Of a stretch of DNA of 32,883 nucleotides, positions 14,535 to 26,981 are shown piece by piece (the stretch's first letter is position 1; each line of letters begins with the position of its first letter). Source of the stretch: Chryseosolibacter indicum (lineage in GTDB: Bacteria > Bacteroidota > Bacteroidia > Cytophagales > Cyclobacteriaceae). Below the pieces are notes generated by a model. It saw only the letters and a program-made list of their open reading frames with translations. It ran no database searches and had not been told where the DNA came from. The position numbers and the translations under genes were made by a program. The DNA is taken from the NCBI RefSeq assembly GCF_018598585.1, contig NZ_JAHESD010000062.1, positions 1 through 32,883 of the forward strand, in the 5' to 3' direction.

Positions 14535-14674
14535 AAACCTTCCGGCACACAATAAGTTCCCTCATGCGGCAGATGTTCGCATTTGTGCTTAAAAGGTGGT
14601 TGGTATTCTCCACTCCTGCTGCACTCGTTCTGCACTCGTGATACTTTTTTTGATGTTTGGGGCTGACCGGATGG

Positions 14675-17383: not shown

Positions 17384-18679
17384 TTAATGCAGCGTCACTT
17401 TAATGATGTTACTCGCAGATGGCAGCGTTGTAAACTCATTTGCACTGGGCACTGCTTCAATGACCTTGCTTTCGTCCAACGGTGTACCGGCCAGATTGAA
17501 TTGCGTAATACCAGCGCCGGGATATTGGTTAACAGCAGTACCATTATCATACAGGCCTATCATCGCAGAAACGTCGCCCTTCTGCGTTGCGTCAAGATCC
17601 TGGCCGCTGGTGGCAAAGAACCAATCGTTGGAGAAACCATACATCGTGGCCAATGCGACGCGATCACCATGCGCCACAGTAAGTTGCTGAGACACCTTGC
17701 CTCCTGCAGCCCCATCGATCCTGGGCAATAACACGGTATTGCTCATATCTTTCAGAACGTATACAGCTTTCACGCCTGCTGCGGTTTTCAAGGCTGCAGC
17801 AAGCACATCGGCATTGCCCTGTTGCGCGAGTTCTTTAAGTCCCATACCGCGGTCTTTCTCTCCGGTTCTAAAGAAGGGATTTTCAGACCCTCTGTATACT
17901 ACTACGAGTACCGGTGAGAGCGGTGTAAATGTGCCAGTAATTCCTGTAAGGTATGCATTCAACGCCGCGTTATCGCCGGCTTCAGCGATATCAGTCAGGC
18001 CATTGGCAGATGGTTTGTCTTTTGAATATATAGGCTCTGGCAACAGCAAGTTGCCTCCCGCTACGTACGAGATGGCCCAAACTCCTGGGCTGAATGGTGT
18101 TTCATTATTGGTTCCGCCGGAGTTATTCATGATCGTGAGCGTGAACGTAGAGTTTCCATTATATACCAAAGACAGTTTCATGAGCTGAGATGCTGGTAAA
18201 TAGGTGTTTCCGTAGTCATCGGTGCCACTTACTTCTTTGATGTTCTTCGCCGGAGCCTCTGCAGCGCCTGGATGCATTACATCGGCGCTTGGAATTTGGT
18301 TGACACGCGTGCCGTTGTCCCACAGCTTTACCTGTGATGATACATCGCCAGTGATTGGAGTTCCATCGTCGTTGTACAACTTAATACCAGGATTCTCCGG
18401 GGCAAAGAAAAGATCGTTACTCCAACCATACATGGTGGCAAAGGTGAGGTATTGGTTCTTTGCTGCGGAGAACGAGAAGGACACGGATTGCCCGGGCAAG
18501 ATGACTGGTGGGGTGTTTGAACCTTTAAAAGTGCCAGATTCTACCAGTGGCTTGCTGTCCAAGACGTTTTCGATTGTGATGGTGGCAGACTGCGTCTTAA
18601 CGTCATCATCATCGTTACACGATACCATTGCAAGTGCTGTAAACAGCACTGCCATTGATTTCAACATGTTTTGTTTCAT
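17384..18679 (-). CDS. Lipoprotein with two spondin_N domains
   Basis: ATG 18679 is chosen because it starts directly at the lipoprotein signal (MKQNMLKSMAVLFTALAMVSC); ATG 18694 would add 5 residues. The lipidated Cys is 21, followed by NDDDD, which suits surface display. Two spondin_N-like repeats are clear from paired motifs: FATMYGWSNDLFFAP with KLWDNGTRVNQIP in the first half, and LATMYGFSNDWFFAT with GLYDNGTAVNQYP in the second. Spondin_N domains in eukaryotes belong to secreted matrix proteins; in bacteria the role is unknown, probably adhesion or ligand binding. It is the first gene of the operon and is divergent from the response regulator, which suggests that the two-component system controls it. 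Confidence 0.87.
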   Translation of the reverse strand: MKQNMLKSMAVLFTALAMVSCNDDDDVKTQSATITIENVLDSKPLVESGTFKGSNTPPVILPGQSVSFSFSAAKNQYLTFATMYGWSNDLFFAPENPGIKLYNDDGTPITGDVSSQVKLWDNGTRVNQIPSADVMHPGAAEAPAKNIKEVSGTDDYGNTYLPASQLMKLSLVYNGNSTFTLTIMNNSGGTNNETPFSPGVWAISYVAGGNLLLPEPIYSKDKPSANGLTDIAEAGDNAALNAYLTGITGTFTPLSPVLVVVYRGSENPFFRTGEKDRGMGLKELAQQGNADVLAAALKTAAGVKAVYVLKDMSNTVLLPRIDGAAGGKVSQQLTVAHGDRVALATMYGFSNDWFFATSGQDLDATQKGDVSAMIGLYDNGTAVNQYPGAGITQFNLAGTPLDESKVIEAVPSANEFTTLPSASNIIKVTLH

Positions 18680-18719
18680 GAGTATTTGTATCATTTAATG
18701 ACTCAAAACAACAGAAACA

Positions 18720-18763
18720 GTATCCCAACGTTATCGCGGATTTATAACAAAAGTATCACAGCC
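18720..18763. promoter_or_regulatory. Four-unit 11-bp direct-repeat array in a divergent promoter
   Basis: TAT occurs at 18721, 18732, 18743 and 18754, exactly 11 bp apart, each preceded by G or T: GTATCCCAACG, TTATCGCGGAT, TTATAACAAAA, GTATCACAGCC. OmpR/PhoB-family regulators bind head-to-tail repeats with this spacing. The array lies between the spondin operon and the response regulator gene and overlaps a -7 box at 18748-18755. The match is short enough that chance remains possible. Confidence 0.4.
18748..18755 (-). promoter_or_regulatory. -7 box for the spondin-YHS-DoxX-DinB operon
   Basis: On the minus strand this reads TACTTTTG, an exact TAnnTTTG match, 69 bp before the ATG at 18679. 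It overlaps the last unit of the 11-bp array, so a bound regulator would contact or block polymerase. The nearest TTG upstream is at 26 nt, so no good -33 box is seen. Confidence 0.45.
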
Positions 18764-18793
18764 CTTTATTTCTTTTTTGTTCAATTTTGTATC

Positions 18794-19501
18794 ATGGCCA
18801 GCAAGCAGATTTTAATTGTAGAGGATGACAGCACCATCGTAGAGCTGCTCATGATCCACCTTCATGACCTCGGATGCGAGGTGACTACAGCATCATCAGG
18901 ACACCAAGGACTTACAGCTGCGAAAAGTAAGCCCTTTGACCTTATCATTCTCGATCTCATGCTGCCGGGGCTCAGCGGAATGGAGGTTTGCCGGAAGATC
19001 AGACAGACAGACCGGCAAACGCCGGTGATGATGCTGACAGCCCGGTCGGAGGAAATTGATAAAGTGATGGGATTGGAAACCGGTGCTGACGACTACCTTA
19101 CAAAGCCTTTCAGTATCCGCGAATTCATTGCACGTGTAAAAGTCATCTTCCGAAGAAGCGAAGATCACCAAATAGTTGAGAGCGCTTCATCTGCATCGGT
19201 ATTAAGTTATGGCGATTTGAAGATTGACGTGGATAAAAGAAAGGTAACGTTGAATAATGTTCGTATCGAGCTTTCGCCAAAAGAATTCGATTTGATTACG
19301 CTTCTGGCATCTAACCCAGGCAAGAGCTATAGCCGCAAAAATTTGCTGAACCTGATCTGGGGTTATGATTTCGAAGGATATGAACATACGGTAAACAGTC
19401 ATATCAACCGCCTGCGAAGCAAGATCGAAGGCGATGTTGCCAATCCGAAGTACATTTTAACGACCTGGGGCGTGGGCTACAGGTTTAATGAAGACCTTTA
19501 A
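18794..19501 (+). CDS. OmpR/PhoB-family response regulator
   Basis: ATG 18794 gives a 235-residue protein that starts at the receiver domain (MASKQILIVEDD). The frame stays open to 18671, but the extra residues lie in the divergent promoter region and are unlikely. The receiver has the acidic pair D11/D12, phospho-acceptor D54 (LIILDLMLPG) and the conserved lysine in DYLTKPFS. Residues about 135-232 form the winged-helix domain (LSPKEFDLITLLASNPGKSY, SRKNLLNLIWGY, HINRLRSKIEGD, VGYRF). The kinase gene follows after 11 bp. It probably acts on the divergent spondin operon and on itself. Confidence 0.95.
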   Translation: MASKQILIVEDDSTIVELLMIHLHDLGCEVTTASSGHQGLTAAKSKPFDLIILDLMLPGLSGMEVCRKIRQTDRQTPVMMLTARSEEIDKVMGLETGADDYLTKPFSIREFIARVKVIFRRSEDHQIVESASSASVLSYGDLKIDVDKRKVTLNNVRIELSPKEFDLITLLASNPGKSYSRKNLLNLIWGYDFEGYEHTVNSHINRLRSKIEGDVANPKYILTTWGVGYRFNEDL

Positions 19502-22388: not shown

Positions 22389-24833
22389 TTATTCACTTCT
22401 TAAGCTCTTGACAGGATTCGCCGTTGCAGCCTTCAACGATTGCCAGCTAACTGTTGCAATTGCAATAATCAAGGCAATTAGTCCTGAAAAAATAAAGAGA
22501 CCGACACCAAGGCTGGTGCGATACGCGAAGTTTGACAGCCATTGATTCATTGCATAAATGGTGATAGGCACAGCAAGCACAAAACCAATAGCTACTAACT
22601 TTAGAAAGTCCACGCTTAAAAGTTGGACGATGCTTCCTACACTAGCACCAAGGACTTTGCGCATCCCGATCTCTTTTGTTCGCTGCTGCGCAGTGAAAGC
22701 AACAAGTCCAAACAACCCAAGACAAGCAATAAAGATAGTCATACCTGCAAATATGCTGAACAGCTTTGCAAAGCGTTGATCGTTCCTGTATTGCAGATCG
22801 AATACATCGTCGACGAAGTTATAGGAAAAAACATTACCCGGAAACAGGGCTTCATAGCTCAATTGAATTTGGCCCAGCACAGAAGAAAAATCTTTTGTTG
22901 CAAGTTTGATGGACACATAGCGCCCGGAACTTGTTCTTCCAAAGACAATATTTTGCTGCGCCTCATGAGCTGATGACCATTTAAAATCCTTGTAGACACC
23001 AACCACGCTGGCTGCATTACCACCAATGTTAAGTGATTCGTCGATTGCTTCAGAAGGATTTTGGTATCCAAGATTTCTTGCAGCGGTCTCGTTGATCATC
23101 ACCATCCAAGGCTCATTTCCGGCCTCTGCCCCACTCATCTCACTGAATTCCTTTCCTGCTACGAGCTTTAGTTCATAGAGGTCTGCAAAGGCAGAATCAA
23201 TGTAAGTTACTACTCCCTGGAGGGCTTTTGCCGGGTCATCAGTAGACTTTCTGATGGCGGCACCATTCCAGTTAAAACCCTGTCCCGGTATAGTCGATGA
23301 AAGCGCGGCTCCTTTCACTCCTGCGATTTTTTTTATTTCGTTTATAAAGGCTTGCATAACCAAAGGGCGATTCACGCCTTCACCAATCATTCTAGGTCCT
23401 CCTACTGCGACTACTTGTTCTAAGTCAAGACCAAGGTCCAGTGTTCTCATATAATTCAATTGATTGTAAACAACACCGGTTCCGCCAACAAGTACAATGC
23501 ACGTCATGAACTGAACGACAACTAAACCTTTTCGAAGCCATAAATGAGAGGACATGTATGATGTTCTTCCTTTAAGAACAGATGCGGGACGAAATGAAGA
23601 CAATACAAATGCAGGGTATAACCCGGCAAGTAAAGTTCCCGATAATAGGGTGCCAGCCAAAGCAATGACAAAGCCAGGCTCTAGCCATTGACTGATCTCC
23701 AGCTGTGTTTCAGCAATGCTATTGACTGTAGGAAGCAGTGCTGCGGTTAACGCAAGAGCAATGACCACAGCGCTGATATTGGTGATTGCTGACTCATAAA
23801 GAAACTGAACCACAAGTTGCCCGCGTTTTGCACCTACCACTTTCCTTACTCCCACTTCTCTCGCGCGATTCAATGCCCGCGCTGTTGCCAGATTTATATA
23901 GTTTACCAGTGCGATTGTTAACGTGATTAAGCCAATTACCAGGAAGAAATACAACGTTTTGTAACTTCCTGAAAGGATACTTCCAGCACCTGATATTTCC
24001 GAATTAAGATGGATGTCTGATAGGGGTTGGGCATGCATGACAGCATTACCACCTTGCTGTTTTATGACTTCGCCGCGATGCTTTAAAAAAACGTCTGTCA
24101 TTTTCTTCTCTAGAGTTTTCAGATCAGCTCCAGGGTGAACTTCAATGTAAGTAGTGAAGTTATTCCAACTCCAGCCTCCCTCGGGCTCTGCTGAATAATC
24201 AGGACCGTTAAGTAAATCTGCCATTGGCAGCAACATGGTGAACTGCAAGTGAGAATTTTTAGGAACCTCGCGAAGAACTCCTGCTACAGTAAAAGTTTTC
24301 TCTATGTTGCCCACGATTTGTAAAGTTTGACCTATTGGGTCAGTCTCACCAAAGTATTTCTTTGCAGCCGACTCTGTAATCAGAATGTTTCCGCGCAACA
24401 GCTGAATTGGTGGATTGCCCTCAACGGCTGGAAAAGAAAACATTTCAAGAAAGTCCTCATCTGCATACAGGATTCGATTCTCTTCATATGTTTTGTCAGG
24501 ACTTAAAGGATTAGTAACAAGAGCATCTTCAGAATGCAACCTTGTTATACGGGTAATATCAGGCACACCTTCCTTCAATGCAGGAGTAAGCGATTGGGCG
24601 GTATAAGCGTGTCCCATACCAGGATCTTCGCTCCCTCTGGCCCATGCTTGTAAAACCCTATAGATTTGATTTCTCTTATCATGGAATCTGTCAAAACCTG
24701 CTTCGAAAGTAACATATTGGAAAATGATCAGGCAGCATGTCATCCCGATGGAAAGTCCTACCACGTTAATGGTAGAAAAGCTTTTGTTGCTGAAGAGATT
24801 GCGCCATGCAACTCGTATATAGTTTCTGAACAT
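22389..24833 (-). CDS. FtsX/MacB-type ABC transporter permease
   Basis: The product has 814 residues. It starts MFRNYIRVAWRNLFSNKSFS, followed by a membrane helix and a MacB-type periplasmic core domain (about 45-245). A first FtsX block with REVGVRKVVGAKRGQLV lies near residues 290-410. A second periplasmic domain follows, then a second FtsX block with QRTKEIGMRKVLGASVG near residue 720, ending NPVKSLRSE. This double-FtsX form is typical of Bacteroidota, which carry many copies. Such proteins work with a LolD/MacB-like ATPase in lipoprotein, peptide or drug export or envelope signalling. No ATPase gene is in the window, so it probably uses one coded elsewhere. Confidence 0.92.
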   Translation of the reverse strand: MFRNYIRVAWRNLFSNKSFSTINVVGLSIGMTCCLIIFQYVTFEAGFDRFHDKRNQIYRVLQAWARGSEDPGMGHAYTAQSLTPALKEGVPDITRITRLHSEDALVTNPLSPDKTYEENRILYADEDFLEMFSFPAVEGNPPIQLLRGNILITESAAKKYFGETDPIGQTLQIVGNIEKTFTVAGVLREVPKNSHLQFTMLLPMADLLNGPDYSAEPEGGWSWNNFTTYIEVHPGADLKTLEKKMTDVFLKHRGEVIKQQGGNAVMHAQPLSDIHLNSEISGAGSILSGSYKTLYFFLVIGLITLTIALVNYINLATARALNRAREVGVRKVVGAKRGQLVVQFLYESAITNISAVVIALALTAALLPTVNSIAETQLEISQWLEPGFVIALAGTLLSGTLLAGLYPAFVLSSFRPASVLKGRTSYMSSHLWLRKGLVVVQFMTCIVLVGGTGVVYNQLNYMRTLDLGLDLEQVVAVGGPRMIGEGVNRPLVMQAFINEIKKIAGVKGAALSSTIPGQGFNWNGAAIRKSTDDPAKALQGVVTYIDSAFADLYELKLVAGKEFSEMSGAEAGNEPWMVMINETAARNLGYQNPSEAIDESLNIGGNAASVVGVYKDFKWSSAHEAQQNIVFGRTSSGRYVSIKLATKDFSSVLGQIQLSYEALFPGNVFSYNFVDDVFDLQYRNDQRFAKLFSIFAGMTIFIACLGLFGLVAFTAQQRTKEIGMRKVLGASVGSIVQLLSVDFLKLVAIGFVLAVPITIYAMNQWLSNFAYRTSLGVGLFIFSGLIALIIAIATVSWQSLKAATANPVKSLRSE

Positions 24834-25345
24834 AACGATTTGGTTAGGTTTCGTTCATGGCACCTTCGCAAGAAGAGTGCCATACGGTACTTCAATCAGA
24901 AATTTGCTGATTCGGCATGGAGGATGAGTTGTTCTGTGCGTTTATGGGATTAATCAAACCGAAATCGAACAATGCTTCAGTTTAGTAAATGATACATACA
25001 AATTCGCCTGCTGTTGTTGATTATTCTTCCTCGACTTCTGTCAACTACTGCGGCATACGAAAGCTTCCCTTGTCACCGTGCTATCGTTAAATGAACAGGT
25101 AGATCTTTTAGGCAGGGAAAATCCGAATGAAACGTGAACGAAGCGCGACCGAAGCTACGACCCCACTAATTCCACACTTCTCAACTAGAAGAAGTTTGAA
25201 CTAAAACTGCGGTCAAGACTAAATCTCCATTCTTTTACATTTCCTGTCCCTTGATAAGAAGTCATCTTATACGTCAATTTCAAGGGAGTATTGATAAATT
25301 CTTTTGTAATCATTCAAGACCGTAAACATTCCTTTGTAGTAGTGT

Positions 25346-25353
25346 TACGTTTG
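25346..25353 (+). promoter_or_regulatory. -7 promoter box of a possible small transcript
   Basis: TACGTTTG matches TAnnTTTG exactly. The nearest upstream TTTG (25333-25336) is only 9 nt away, too close for a -33 box, so the promoter is uncertain. A start near 25360 would give a transcript of about 210 nt ending at the hairpin at 25547-25571. Confidence 0.3.
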
Positions 25354-25437
25354 AAACGGATTGCCGCGGCTAGTGCTGGAAAAAAATAACTAAACCAATA
25401 TTTATGGCTTCTGGAAGAACATAACTTCTTGTTAGCC

Positions 25438-25548
25438 ATGAAACTTCACAAGCAGTTTAATAGAAGCACAAATAGGTTACGTATGCCGAACAGAAGTTTT
25501 TGTGCCGGTTTATGCCATTGTGTGTCTGTTATTCATAAGAAAGCCTAA
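25438..25548 (+). CDS. Possible 36-residue Cys-containing small protein
   Basis: An ATG at 25438 opens a 36-codon frame that starts MKLHKQFNRS, carries SFCAGLCHCVSV near its end and stops at TAA 25546-25548. The product is strongly basic with three clustered cysteines. A terminator hairpin begins at its stop codon, and a -7 box lies 85 bp upstream. No family is recognised. It may instead be a non-coding RNA or chance. Confidence 0.25.
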   Translation: MKLHKQFNRSTNRLRMPNRSFCAGLCHCVSVIHKKA

Positions 25549-25571
25549 AAAATGCCGGATAGGCATTCTTT
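25547..25571. terminator. Terminator-like hairpin
   Basis: AATGCC (25551-25556) pairs with GGCATT (25562-25567) around a 5-nt loop. An A-run precedes it and CTTTT follows, so it can work in both directions. It could end the possible small transcript on the plus strand or read-through from the ROK gene on the minus strand. Confidence 0.5.
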
Positions 25572-25585
25572 TACACAATGGATAA

Positions 25586-25662
25586 GCATACTTGAAGTAT
25601 CCTAAGTGTATGCTATATGTATACCCGAAGTATTAGCAGTGTATAGGAAGAGTATTAAAATG
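25586..25662. repeat. Array of seven 11-bp units with invariant GTAT
   Basis: GTAT occurs at 25597, 25608, 25619, 25630, 25641 and 25652, each exactly 11 bp from the last, and GCAT at 25586 extends the register by one unit. The next GTAT (25672) is 2 bp out of phase. The seven bases between the GTATs differ from unit to unit, so this is not a simple tandem duplication but a set of similar sites on one DNA face. It is probably an extended binding array for a head-to-tail DNA-binding protein such as an OmpR/PhoB-type regulator. Confidence 0.7.
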
Positions 25663-25763
25663 CGCGGGAGTGTATTAGAAATACCTTTTTGACCTTCAGC
25701 TCTTTCATAATAAACGAAACGGCACTTTTAGATATGTTCAGCATTGCATTGTTTGTGAAGATC

Positions 25764-25783
25764 GGAAGCAATCAATTGCTTCC
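25764..25783. terminator. Perfect 8-bp stem after the ROK gene
   Basis: GGAAGCAA (25764-25771), TCAA loop, TTGCTTCC (25776-25783). It lies 44 bp beyond the ROK stop on the minus strand. No T-run follows, so termination is uncertain. Confidence 0.4.
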
Positions 25784-25826
25784 TGCCCAACTCAACCGAA
25801 ATAATTAACAATCGTCTTTATGTGTA

Positions 25827-26981
25827 TTAGAGGATTGAAGACTTAGTTAATTTGAGATCCTGTTCCGCTGTTGAAATATGCTGAGGAAGTCGATGAAGAG
25901 CAATCGTATAAGCACCAATGGAAATGGCTCGGTTTGTTCCAATTCGTGACTTGATTATACCAATACGCTTTTCACTTTCATATGGTACTTTTCGATTTGA
26001 AAAGGGAACCTCTACCTCTTGATCTTTATAACTCAGAAATTGCTCAAATGACTGCTTGTCTTCAAGGTCGTATACTTTACTGACTAATCGGGGAATGTGC
26101 CTGCCATCAAGCGTCTGAATTGTTCCATTCATGTGCTCAATAATTTTAGGAATAAGCAATGAGTAAGCACCTGAAATTCCACCTCCGATAACAATAATCC
26201 CATCTATTAGCGTAACGGCATGGCAAAGCGATTCCGCAATCACCAATGCCACCTCATTAAATACTTCAAGGGCTGCGGATCTATTACCAGGTTTGATACC
26301 CTGTGCTATTTCACTGATGTCCTTGGGCATTAACCTTGAATCGGTGTTACCCGATTTTTGGGCATAGGCCATTTGAATCGCCTTGGTGCTCATTTGTGCT
26401 TCAGCAAACATAGCTGGGTTAACGATACTTCGGGATAGCCAGATTTCACCACCGGCAAAGTTATCTCCCTCACACAGTGTATTGTTAACGACAAGCCCTG
26501 CACCAAACCCTGTTCCTAGTGTTATTCCAAGAAGATTGGAATAGCGTTTGGATACATTTCTCTCAAATAAACAACCGTTGATGTATGGCAAGGCACCTGC
26601 CATTGCTTCCGCGTAAGCAAAAAGGTTTCCGTCATTGCCAATAAAAGTGGGCAACTTAAAATAGTCCTCTAACATTGGGCCCAACGCTATTCCGCCATCT
26701 TTAAAAGCAGGAAGATTGGGAAGCTTGCCGATAATGCCCGCCCTGTAGTCAGCAGGTCCTGGAAACGCAAAACTTATTGCTATAGGAGCCTCCGGAAGTC
26801 GCGACTTTACTTGCTCAAAACCCGTAATAATAGTGCGGAGGCACTGATCAAGGTTATGGGCATTGGACTCCATTATAATGGGATCAACGATTTCCTCTCC
26901 CCCTTGAATTGCAGAGAACACAAAATTTGTCCCCCCTGCATCTAGCGTCATGACGATACGCTTATCGGTATAAATACTCAT
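25827..26981 (-). CDS. ROK-family sugar kinase-like protein
   Basis: The product has 384 residues. The phosphate-binding motif LDAGGTNFVFSAI lies at residues 14-26, and the likely catalytic base is D117 in FIGNDGNLFAYAEA. An adenosine-side glycine motif (IIVIGGGISGAY) is present. There is no N-terminal helix-turn-helix, so it is a kinase-type rather than regulator-type ROK protein. The usual ROK zinc motif (CxCGxxGC) is missing: the place after LGTGFGAGLVV is occupied by GGEIWLSRSIVNPAMF. Members phosphorylate glucose, fructose, mannose, N-acetylmannosamine or similar sugars; the substrate cannot be fixed here. A palindromic operator sits inside its promoter. Confidence 0.88.
   Translation of the reverse strand: MSIYTDKRIVMTLDAGGTNFVFSAIQGGEEIVDPIIMESNAHNLDQCLRTIITGFEQVKSRLPEAPIAISFAFPGPADYRAGIIGKLPNLPAFKDGGIALGPMLEDYFKLPTFIGNDGNLFAYAEAMAGALPYINGCLFERNVSKRYSNLLGITLGTGFGAGLVVNNTLCEGDNFAGGEIWLSRSIVNPAMFAEAQMSTKAIQMAYAQKSGNTDSRLMPKDISEIAQGIKPGNRSAALEVFNEVALVIAESLCHAVTLIDGIIVIGGGISGAYSLLIPKIIEHMNGTIQTLDGRHIPRLVSKVYDLEDKQSFEQFLSYKDQEVEVPFSNRKVPYESEKRIGIIKSRIGTNRAISIGAYTIALHRLPQHISTAEQDLKLTKSSIL

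Follow-up and report, generated by a model that had tools for sequence, protein, structure and literature searches.

A GTAT array phased at 11 bp in Chryseosolibacter indicum belongs to a dispersed family of elements linked to the gene of a 250-residue protein

Introduction

Two described systems come closest to the locus studied here. The operators of PhoB/OmpR-class regulators, such as the pho box, consist of 11-bp direct repeats on one face of the DNA helix. RAYTs are REP-associated tyrosine transposases of the HUH (Y1) type. The REP element is itself described as a short palindrome of 20-40 bp (PMC3733652).

Here, we compare these systems with an array of GTAT tetramers, spaced at exactly 11 bp, in a 32,883-nucleotide stretch of the C. 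indicum genome (contig NZ_JAHESD010000062.1, positions 1 to 32,883, hereafter the window). The array is a real, non-random feature, and its first interpretation was off. Our observations point to it being part of an undescribed partnership between a DNA element and a protein of about 250 amino acids. Neither the arrays nor this protein is described in the literature that we searched, which covers few subscription papers.

A phased array in a tandem intergenic gap

The array and its surroundings comprise the following features:

25586..25662, plus strand: family A array, a GCAT unit followed by six GTAT units at exact 11-bp spacing (read from the sequence)
25669..25675, plus strand: AGTGTAT motif 3' of the array, offset by 17 bp relative to the first base of its last unit
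24834..25826, unstranded: tandem intergenic gap that holds the element (ORF map and gap classification)
22389..24833, minus strand: MacB/FtsX-type permease of 814 amino acids (Pfam MacB_PCD and FtsX)
25827..26981, minus strand: ROK family protein (Pfam ROK)

The GTAT tetramers start at 25597, 25608, 25619, 25630, 25641 and 25652, preceded by GCAT at 25586, in agreement with the positions given in the initial annotation, and the final unit reads GTATTAAAATG. The annotation's geometry, in which sites spaced by 11 bp share one face of the DNA, stands as well. Its distances were also right: the gap is bounded by the 5' end of the permease gene, whose start is 763 bp from the array (about 750 bp had been given), and by the 3' end of the ROK gene, which lies 171 bp from the last GTAT. 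A search of the genus found no close orthologue of the ROK protein, with matches at most 31% identical.

Chance does not account for this arrangement. A three-GTAT pattern has four overlapping matches in the window, where dinucleotide shuffles contain 0.01 on average. An order-2 Markov model trained on stretches of the same genome gave, in 5 Mb of sequence, one run of three GTATs and none of four or more. At the observed GTAT frequency of 0.0047, about 1.3e-7 runs of six units are expected in the genome. The annotation had argued against chance too, and the objection it raised against itself, that such arrays might be as frequent in shuffled sequence, falls away, since they are far rarer in shuffled and Markov sequence than observed.

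The suggestion that the array is the promoter of an unseen RNA found no such backing. A search of the whole window against Rfam returned nothing at gathering score, and the array folds no better than its shuffles (z = -1.04 and -0.87 on the two strands), and we rejected a structured RNA on these grounds. Tandem Repeats Finder leaves the array unreported because its units have little in common except GTAT. For the same reason, its letter-by-letter likeness score at lag 11 is 13, just below the threshold of 14 used for our genome samples.

Family A arrays are copies of one ordered element

Although it had been called an orphan, the window array has five sisters. The C. indicum genome (G000; 5.8 Mb in 183 contigs) contains six arrays with at least four GTATs at 11 bp (C55, C75, C128, C142, which is the window array, C153 and C155), and gives 17 overlapping matches to a four-GTAT pattern and none to the reversed control pattern. 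With these six arrays aligned on the last GTAT, spacers at the same unit position are 73.5% identical between arrays (75 comparisons), those at differing unit positions 26.5% (300 comparisons), and those inside one array 27.4% (60 comparisons). Since the spacers are alike by position between arrays and not within them, they indicate a single ordered element, about 90 bp long, that was copied whole and dispersed, not a tandem repeat. Two Sphingobacterium species, whose arrays we placed in register with the six, have altered versions of the last units (about GTATACGTGAA GTATGGATAGT GTATAGGAAGA GTATTAAA).

These values bear on the idea that the array is a degenerate minisatellite, the functionless remains of an old 11-bp tandem repeat. 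Other families in the genome are plain 11-bp tandem repeats (for example, GTAGATAACCC), as are many of the matches listed from the blind scan described below. In the window array, the units are not alike along their whole length, and a within-array spacer identity of 27%, about the level of chance, rules out a plain tandem repeat, as the annotation had held for simple tandem duplication. Decay of a tandem repeat would also not yield position-specific spacers conserved between loci, with last units conserved between genera. Some of the GTAT conservation arises by construction, because the arrays were found by that word. On balance, we consider a decayed repeat very improbable.

The motif AGTGTAT, at equal offset, was seen by eye in C75, C128 and C153 as well as in the window, and is absent from C55 and C155; it is probably the 3' edge of the element. 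Past about 110 bp, the only further match between flanks is that of C75 with C153 (246 bp at 87%). Short copies that carry no gene and lie in mostly unrelated flanks are reminiscent of MITEs, as is one insertion-like case, a family C array inside a conserved gene pair. The likeness ends at the absence of a recognised transposase and of visible terminal inverted repeats in family A, and no target-site duplication was noticed.

Three of the six family A arrays, those of the window, C75 and C153 (about 3.7 kb off), have a MacB/FtsX-like permease paralogue in their vicinity (22389-24833, L051:4513-6924 and L053:5099-7507). The distances differ, and this proximity may be due to chance. Neighbour comparison revealed no additional common neighbour of this kind for the other family A arrays.

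Several array families share the 11-bp period

A scan for repetition at varying lags, over 20 stretches of the C. indicum genome and the window, found 11 to be the commonest period, with 11 arrays; lags 22 and 33 gave 6 and 8 arrays, and Markov sequence gave none at lag 11. Five of the 20 stretches (L216, L217, L220, L221 and L222) had been picked for arrays already known, so 11 arrays in 426 kb overstates the density; without these five, there are 5 arrays in 0.33 Mb. The units fall into families A (GTAT), B (GTAGATAACCC), C (GAGTGCAGAGA), D (TATGCTTCGAC), F, G and others. After merging, all arrays examined lie between ORFs, except one within a doubtful ORF of 92 amino acids.

Families B, F and G are palindromic, and B has a conserved centre: a long arm is followed by a short central sequence (CCTTAAAGAG) and a shorter inverted arm. 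The palindromic elements of the three families (L224-L229, L231-L236, L216:14196) are scattered and have mostly unrelated flanks. Family C is represented in the window by a second, short 11-bp array of CTGCACTCGTT units (14607-14639), which occupies a divergent gap flanked by a luciferase-like monooxygenase gene and an ORF of 197 amino acids; further family C arrays occur at L211, L216:1044 and L218.

The same-genus genomes G001 and G002 yielded no lag-11 array in 400 kb of evenly spaced stretches and one in 200 kb of previously encountered contigs, respectively. At the same threshold, 7-bp arrays are abundant in both (39 in the 400 kb of G001 and 26 in the 200 kb of G002). These are degenerate, some are palindromic, and many lie a few bases from ORF ends (for example, L259:7084-7156, L252:11738-11884 and L251:5888-5991). 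An E. coli control of 50 kb contained no lag-11 array. Conservation in close relatives, by which the initial annotation had proposed to be judged, gave a mixed answer: the two same-genus genomes have no five-GTAT array, while arrays are found in Sphingobacterium, Flavobacterium and other genera, and the order of the last units is common to family A of the window and the two Sphingobacterium arrays.

Arrays are linked to the gene of a 250-residue protein

A blind contig scan for five GTATs at 11 bp returned at least 120 stretches, 97 of them from Bacteroidota among the matches listed. A protein of about 250 amino acids is common to 5 of 32 chosen array loci (L134, L127, L144, L269 and C155 of C. 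indicum). When all 142 array loci were compared (the 120 scan matches listed and 22 views of sites in genomes of the class), no other cluster of neighbours had as many independent sites as its family. The gene is found 95-266 bp from the array in L127, L134, L144, L171, L193 (where the gene start is uncertain), L202, L203 and L362. Counting the scan matches listed, 7 of 120 loci have the gene, to which G188 is added, and 113 of 120 are without it within at most 8 kb of sequence.

The arrangement of the two parts is fixed. In all ten loci that have both, which come from several families, the gene lies opposite the GTAT strand with the array upstream, at 95-266 bp in nine and at 1044 bp in L269. 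The gene-linked family A array of C. indicum, on C155, is 143-184 bp from its partner, depending on the choice of start codon, and C155:5877-6626 is likely the cognate gene for family A in this genome.

Linkage extends to the paralogues. Of nine genomes chosen out of 59, a profile search detected the family in G000 (9 copies) and G051 (2 copies) alone, which are also the two of the nine with five-GTAT arrays. Every one of these 11 homologues has an upstream 11-bp array (lag score 14-45). With the search confined to 800 bp and a threshold of 12, an upstream array is scored for 9 of the 11; the two misses are L294 (score 11), whose over-extended gene start covers part of the array, and L289 (score 7), whose array lies 1041 bp upstream with another gene in between. 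The C. indicum paralogues have at least five types of unit: A at C155; G at C96 and C183:102158; D at C150; B at C99 and C33, with a B-like unit at C89; and another type at C119. The array at C183:38328 is weak.

Across lags of 6-30, lag 11 is the best upstream of the C. indicum and G051 genes (mean 21.1 versus 6.3 for other lags); downstream it scores 5.8 and is not the best. Lag 11 also ranks first upstream of the gene in a further 26 loci, drawn from 26 other genomes (10.7 versus 6.6); downstream of it, lag 11 scores 7.6 and lag 7 leads. A score of at least 12 at lag 11 is reached upstream in 7/26 of these loci versus 3/26 downstream. By eye, some of the other-genome loci have three to five degenerate units and about ten are without a clear array. 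L327 and L328 were outside this inspection, and L321, with its truncated flank, was left out both here and in the lag scoring; in L307-L319, several arrays were identified visually and not by score.

At the level of whole genomes, 31 of 247 genomes of the class encode the protein and 6 of 247 have four-GTAT arrays; the reversed control pattern matched once each in G099 and G252 (2/247). The protein is found in 4 of the 6 array genomes compared with 31/247 overall (p = 0.0026), in 3 of 5 without the discovery genome G000 (p = 0.014) and in 2 of 4 without G000 and G152 (p = 0.07), all values being uncorrected for kinship. Array and gene stand side by side in only G000 and G188 among the four genomes with both. 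G188 has a single array, 266 bp from a homologue; the G152 array is a plain tandem repeat on a different contig from the gene, and that of G277 is also on a different contig. Of the 31 protein-bearing genomes, 27 have no exact four-GTAT array. Co-occurrence between genomes is thus a weak test, and physical linkage is the stronger evidence. G084 and G098 have GTAT arrays and no homologue at E <= 0.001. In G084, GTATTACAATC arrays are numerous (L359-L379), with inverted ones among them, and may have a different partner.

The identity of the common neighbour bears on the annotation's comparison of the array with the direct repeats of OmpR/PhoB-class response regulators, for which the regulator encoded in the window at 18671-19501 was a candidate. 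This regulator does belong to the class, and the arrays resemble the operators of that class in their 11-bp spacing and in sites that face one side of the helix. Yet nothing links the regulator to the arrays; the neighbour that arrays of different species have in common is an unrelated protein family. Related regulators are numerous in all three genus genomes, two of which are without five-GTAT arrays. The best same-genus match of the window regulator is about 42% identical, no better than the paralogues in its own genome, leaving it with no clear orthologue, so this comparison within the genus is not decisive. Where a PhoB/OmpR operator has a few repeats, the arrays have six or seven ordered units with unit-specific conserved spacers, unlike a short operator. 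Their copies also occupy gaps without gene starts: the window array, distant from the start of the permease gene and on the 3' side of ROK, is not in a promoter position, and the arrays as a class are not enriched in divergent gaps. We therefore give a response-regulator site hardly any weight.

The protein, its 65-residue neighbour and the module

We next considered what the linked gene encodes. The protein of about 250 amino acids has no match above cut-off in Pfam, NCBIfam or the sequences of the PDB. SecB (0.045) and Colicin (0.073) appeared below threshold, each in one of ten members, and were set aside. AlphaFold2 models (pLDDT 84 and 90) predict conserved Arg/Glu-rich helices and a C-terminal beta-sandwich. 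Foldseek searches with both returned nothing at E <= 0.001. The best PDB matches of the first model are C2 domains (E = 0.0013, with a query TM below 0.3). In the search with the second, better model, C2 domains were no longer at the top (best E 0.025), and we read no function from them. No DNA-binding or transposase domain or fold was recognised in these searches.

Near the array or the gene in many loci, including C155, is a second gene, for a protein of 65 amino acids with the motif RITGKSERYARRLL and no match above cut-off in Pfam or NCBIfam. In some loci, it is oriented opposite to the 250-residue protein gene. A DUF5675 gene lies downstream of the latter in L269 and L202 (by Pfam) and in L127 and L144 (by similarity).

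A staphylococcal-nuclease-like gene, named from reading some of the translations, stands beside the 250-residue protein gene in L301-L305, L381 and L269; these contexts include loci without a clear GTAT array, a viral contig and one array locus. The viral contig, L381, encodes a relative of the protein. It was the only one found by a scan of viral sequences with one peptide pattern, which can do no more than hint that the gene is uncommon in viruses, and a viral origin of the protein was set aside.

The locus at L202:248-4982 is complete, with the order tRNA-Arg, integrase, RteC, 65-residue protein gene, array, 250-residue protein gene, DUF5675 and a small membrane-like protein, and resembles one end of a small integrated island. 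Because the module adjoins tRNA-Arg, a tyrosine integrase and RteC, it is there part of a tRNA-associated island. Such a context would be expected if the arrays were arm-type or recombination sites of tyrosine integrases at the ends of tRNA-integrated islands. L317 has an integrase nearby as well, and tRNA genes are found in 8 of the 44 gene loci scanned. Other counts point away from it: the L202 integrase or a relative of it is present in only 2 of the 57 loci searched, within the available sequence (L202 and L317), none of the 28 array stretches of C. indicum, window included, has a tRNA gene, and the ten two-part loci keep the array in position relative to the 250-residue protein gene. Integrase sites are accordingly an improbable explanation, if a little less so than a response-regulator operator or a decayed repeat.

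Solo arrays are scattered through intergenic space

Both neighbours are known for 27 arrays, 17 of which fall in tandem gaps, 6 in convergent and 4 in divergent ones (this count, over all families, includes the gene-linked L054 and L221 and the L051 gap twice, and excludes four arrays without two neighbours). These shares are near those of intergenic bases (57% tandem, 15% convergent and 28% divergent), so scatter through free space fits better than promoter control.

One family C array occupies a 332-bp gap in a convergent EamA-type/ispE pair, the two names having been read from sequence and not from a family search. The pair is found in 10 of 29 loci from relatives, with gaps between the ends of the protein matches of 11-53 bp in G001, G002, G005, G011 and G017, 44 bp in G006, 80 bp in G020 and 475-1136 bp in G003, G008 and G018. 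A search for remnants of the 250-residue protein gene found none beside the solo arrays covered, and matched only the gene-linked L221 and L222.

This placement also informs the most substantial of the alternatives, a regulon. The 250-residue or the 65-residue protein would be a regulator, the gene-linked array its autoregulatory operator, and the solo arrays target operators, for example of the MacB/FtsX permeases. The short distance from array to gene start in nine of ten loci, the opposite direction of the 65-residue protein gene in some, the permease genes near three of six family A arrays and helical phasing compatible with cooperative binding all agree with it. Against it, 6 of the 27 arrays are in convergent gaps, with no gene start to control, the overall spread follows intergenic space, the permease gene starts 763 bp away from the window array, and the remaining family A arrays have no further common neighbour of the permease kind. 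We judge a regulon to be unlikely, though well ahead of the alternatives above.

Discussion

The partnership of array and protein works most like REP/RAYT, though two of the three traits that define that class, a palindrome and an HUH transposase, are missing; the third, dispersed copies together with gene-adjacent ones, is present. In both systems, small multi-copy intergenic elements have a homologous copy beside a protein gene, and paralogous gene-element pairs differ in sequence; array families B, F and G are even palindromic. However, the family A element is about 90 bp long, phased at 11 bp and unremarkable in folding, where REPs are palindromes of 20-40 bp, and the 250-residue protein matches no transposase model or fold, where RAYTs are HUH enzymes.

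The reading we favour, and think probable, is that the window array is a solo, dispersed copy of the cis-element of the 250-residue protein, scattered in REP-like fashion and bound by protein. We place its odds at this level because it rests on the linkage and register evidence. The complete element of about 90 bp, directly upstream of the gene, would form a two-part module, or a three-part one with the 65-residue protein gene, present in several families of Bacteroidota. The 250-residue protein or its 65-residue partner may recognise GTAT once per helical turn and assemble side by side along a single face of the DNA. At the gene copy, such an assembly could control the module autogenously or mark it. 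Solo copies may spread with or by the module, as REP elements do by RAYT proteins, and would be retained as additional binding sites, not as promoters for the permease or ROK genes.

A broader reading is conceivable, and we put it forward tentatively, as less likely than the one above. The arrays and the protein may constitute a new protein-DNA system of Bacteroidota in which paralogues each have their own 11-bp array code, with the protein family, lacking a known fold and unrelated to known transposases or nucleoid proteins, either scattering the arrays or forming a phased nucleoprotein filament on them, in a RAYT-like or nucleoid-organising role.

The finding connects a sequence pattern that had lacked an explanation with a protein family for which the libraries searched gave no family-model or fold match. 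Several gene-array pairs with differing units coexist in one genome. If the protein reads one block of bases per turn, these paralogue-unit pairs would be a natural specificity series for a recognition code. If this holds true, the arrays would represent a novel class of dispersed elements in bacteria, beyond the frames of REP/RAYT and transposons.
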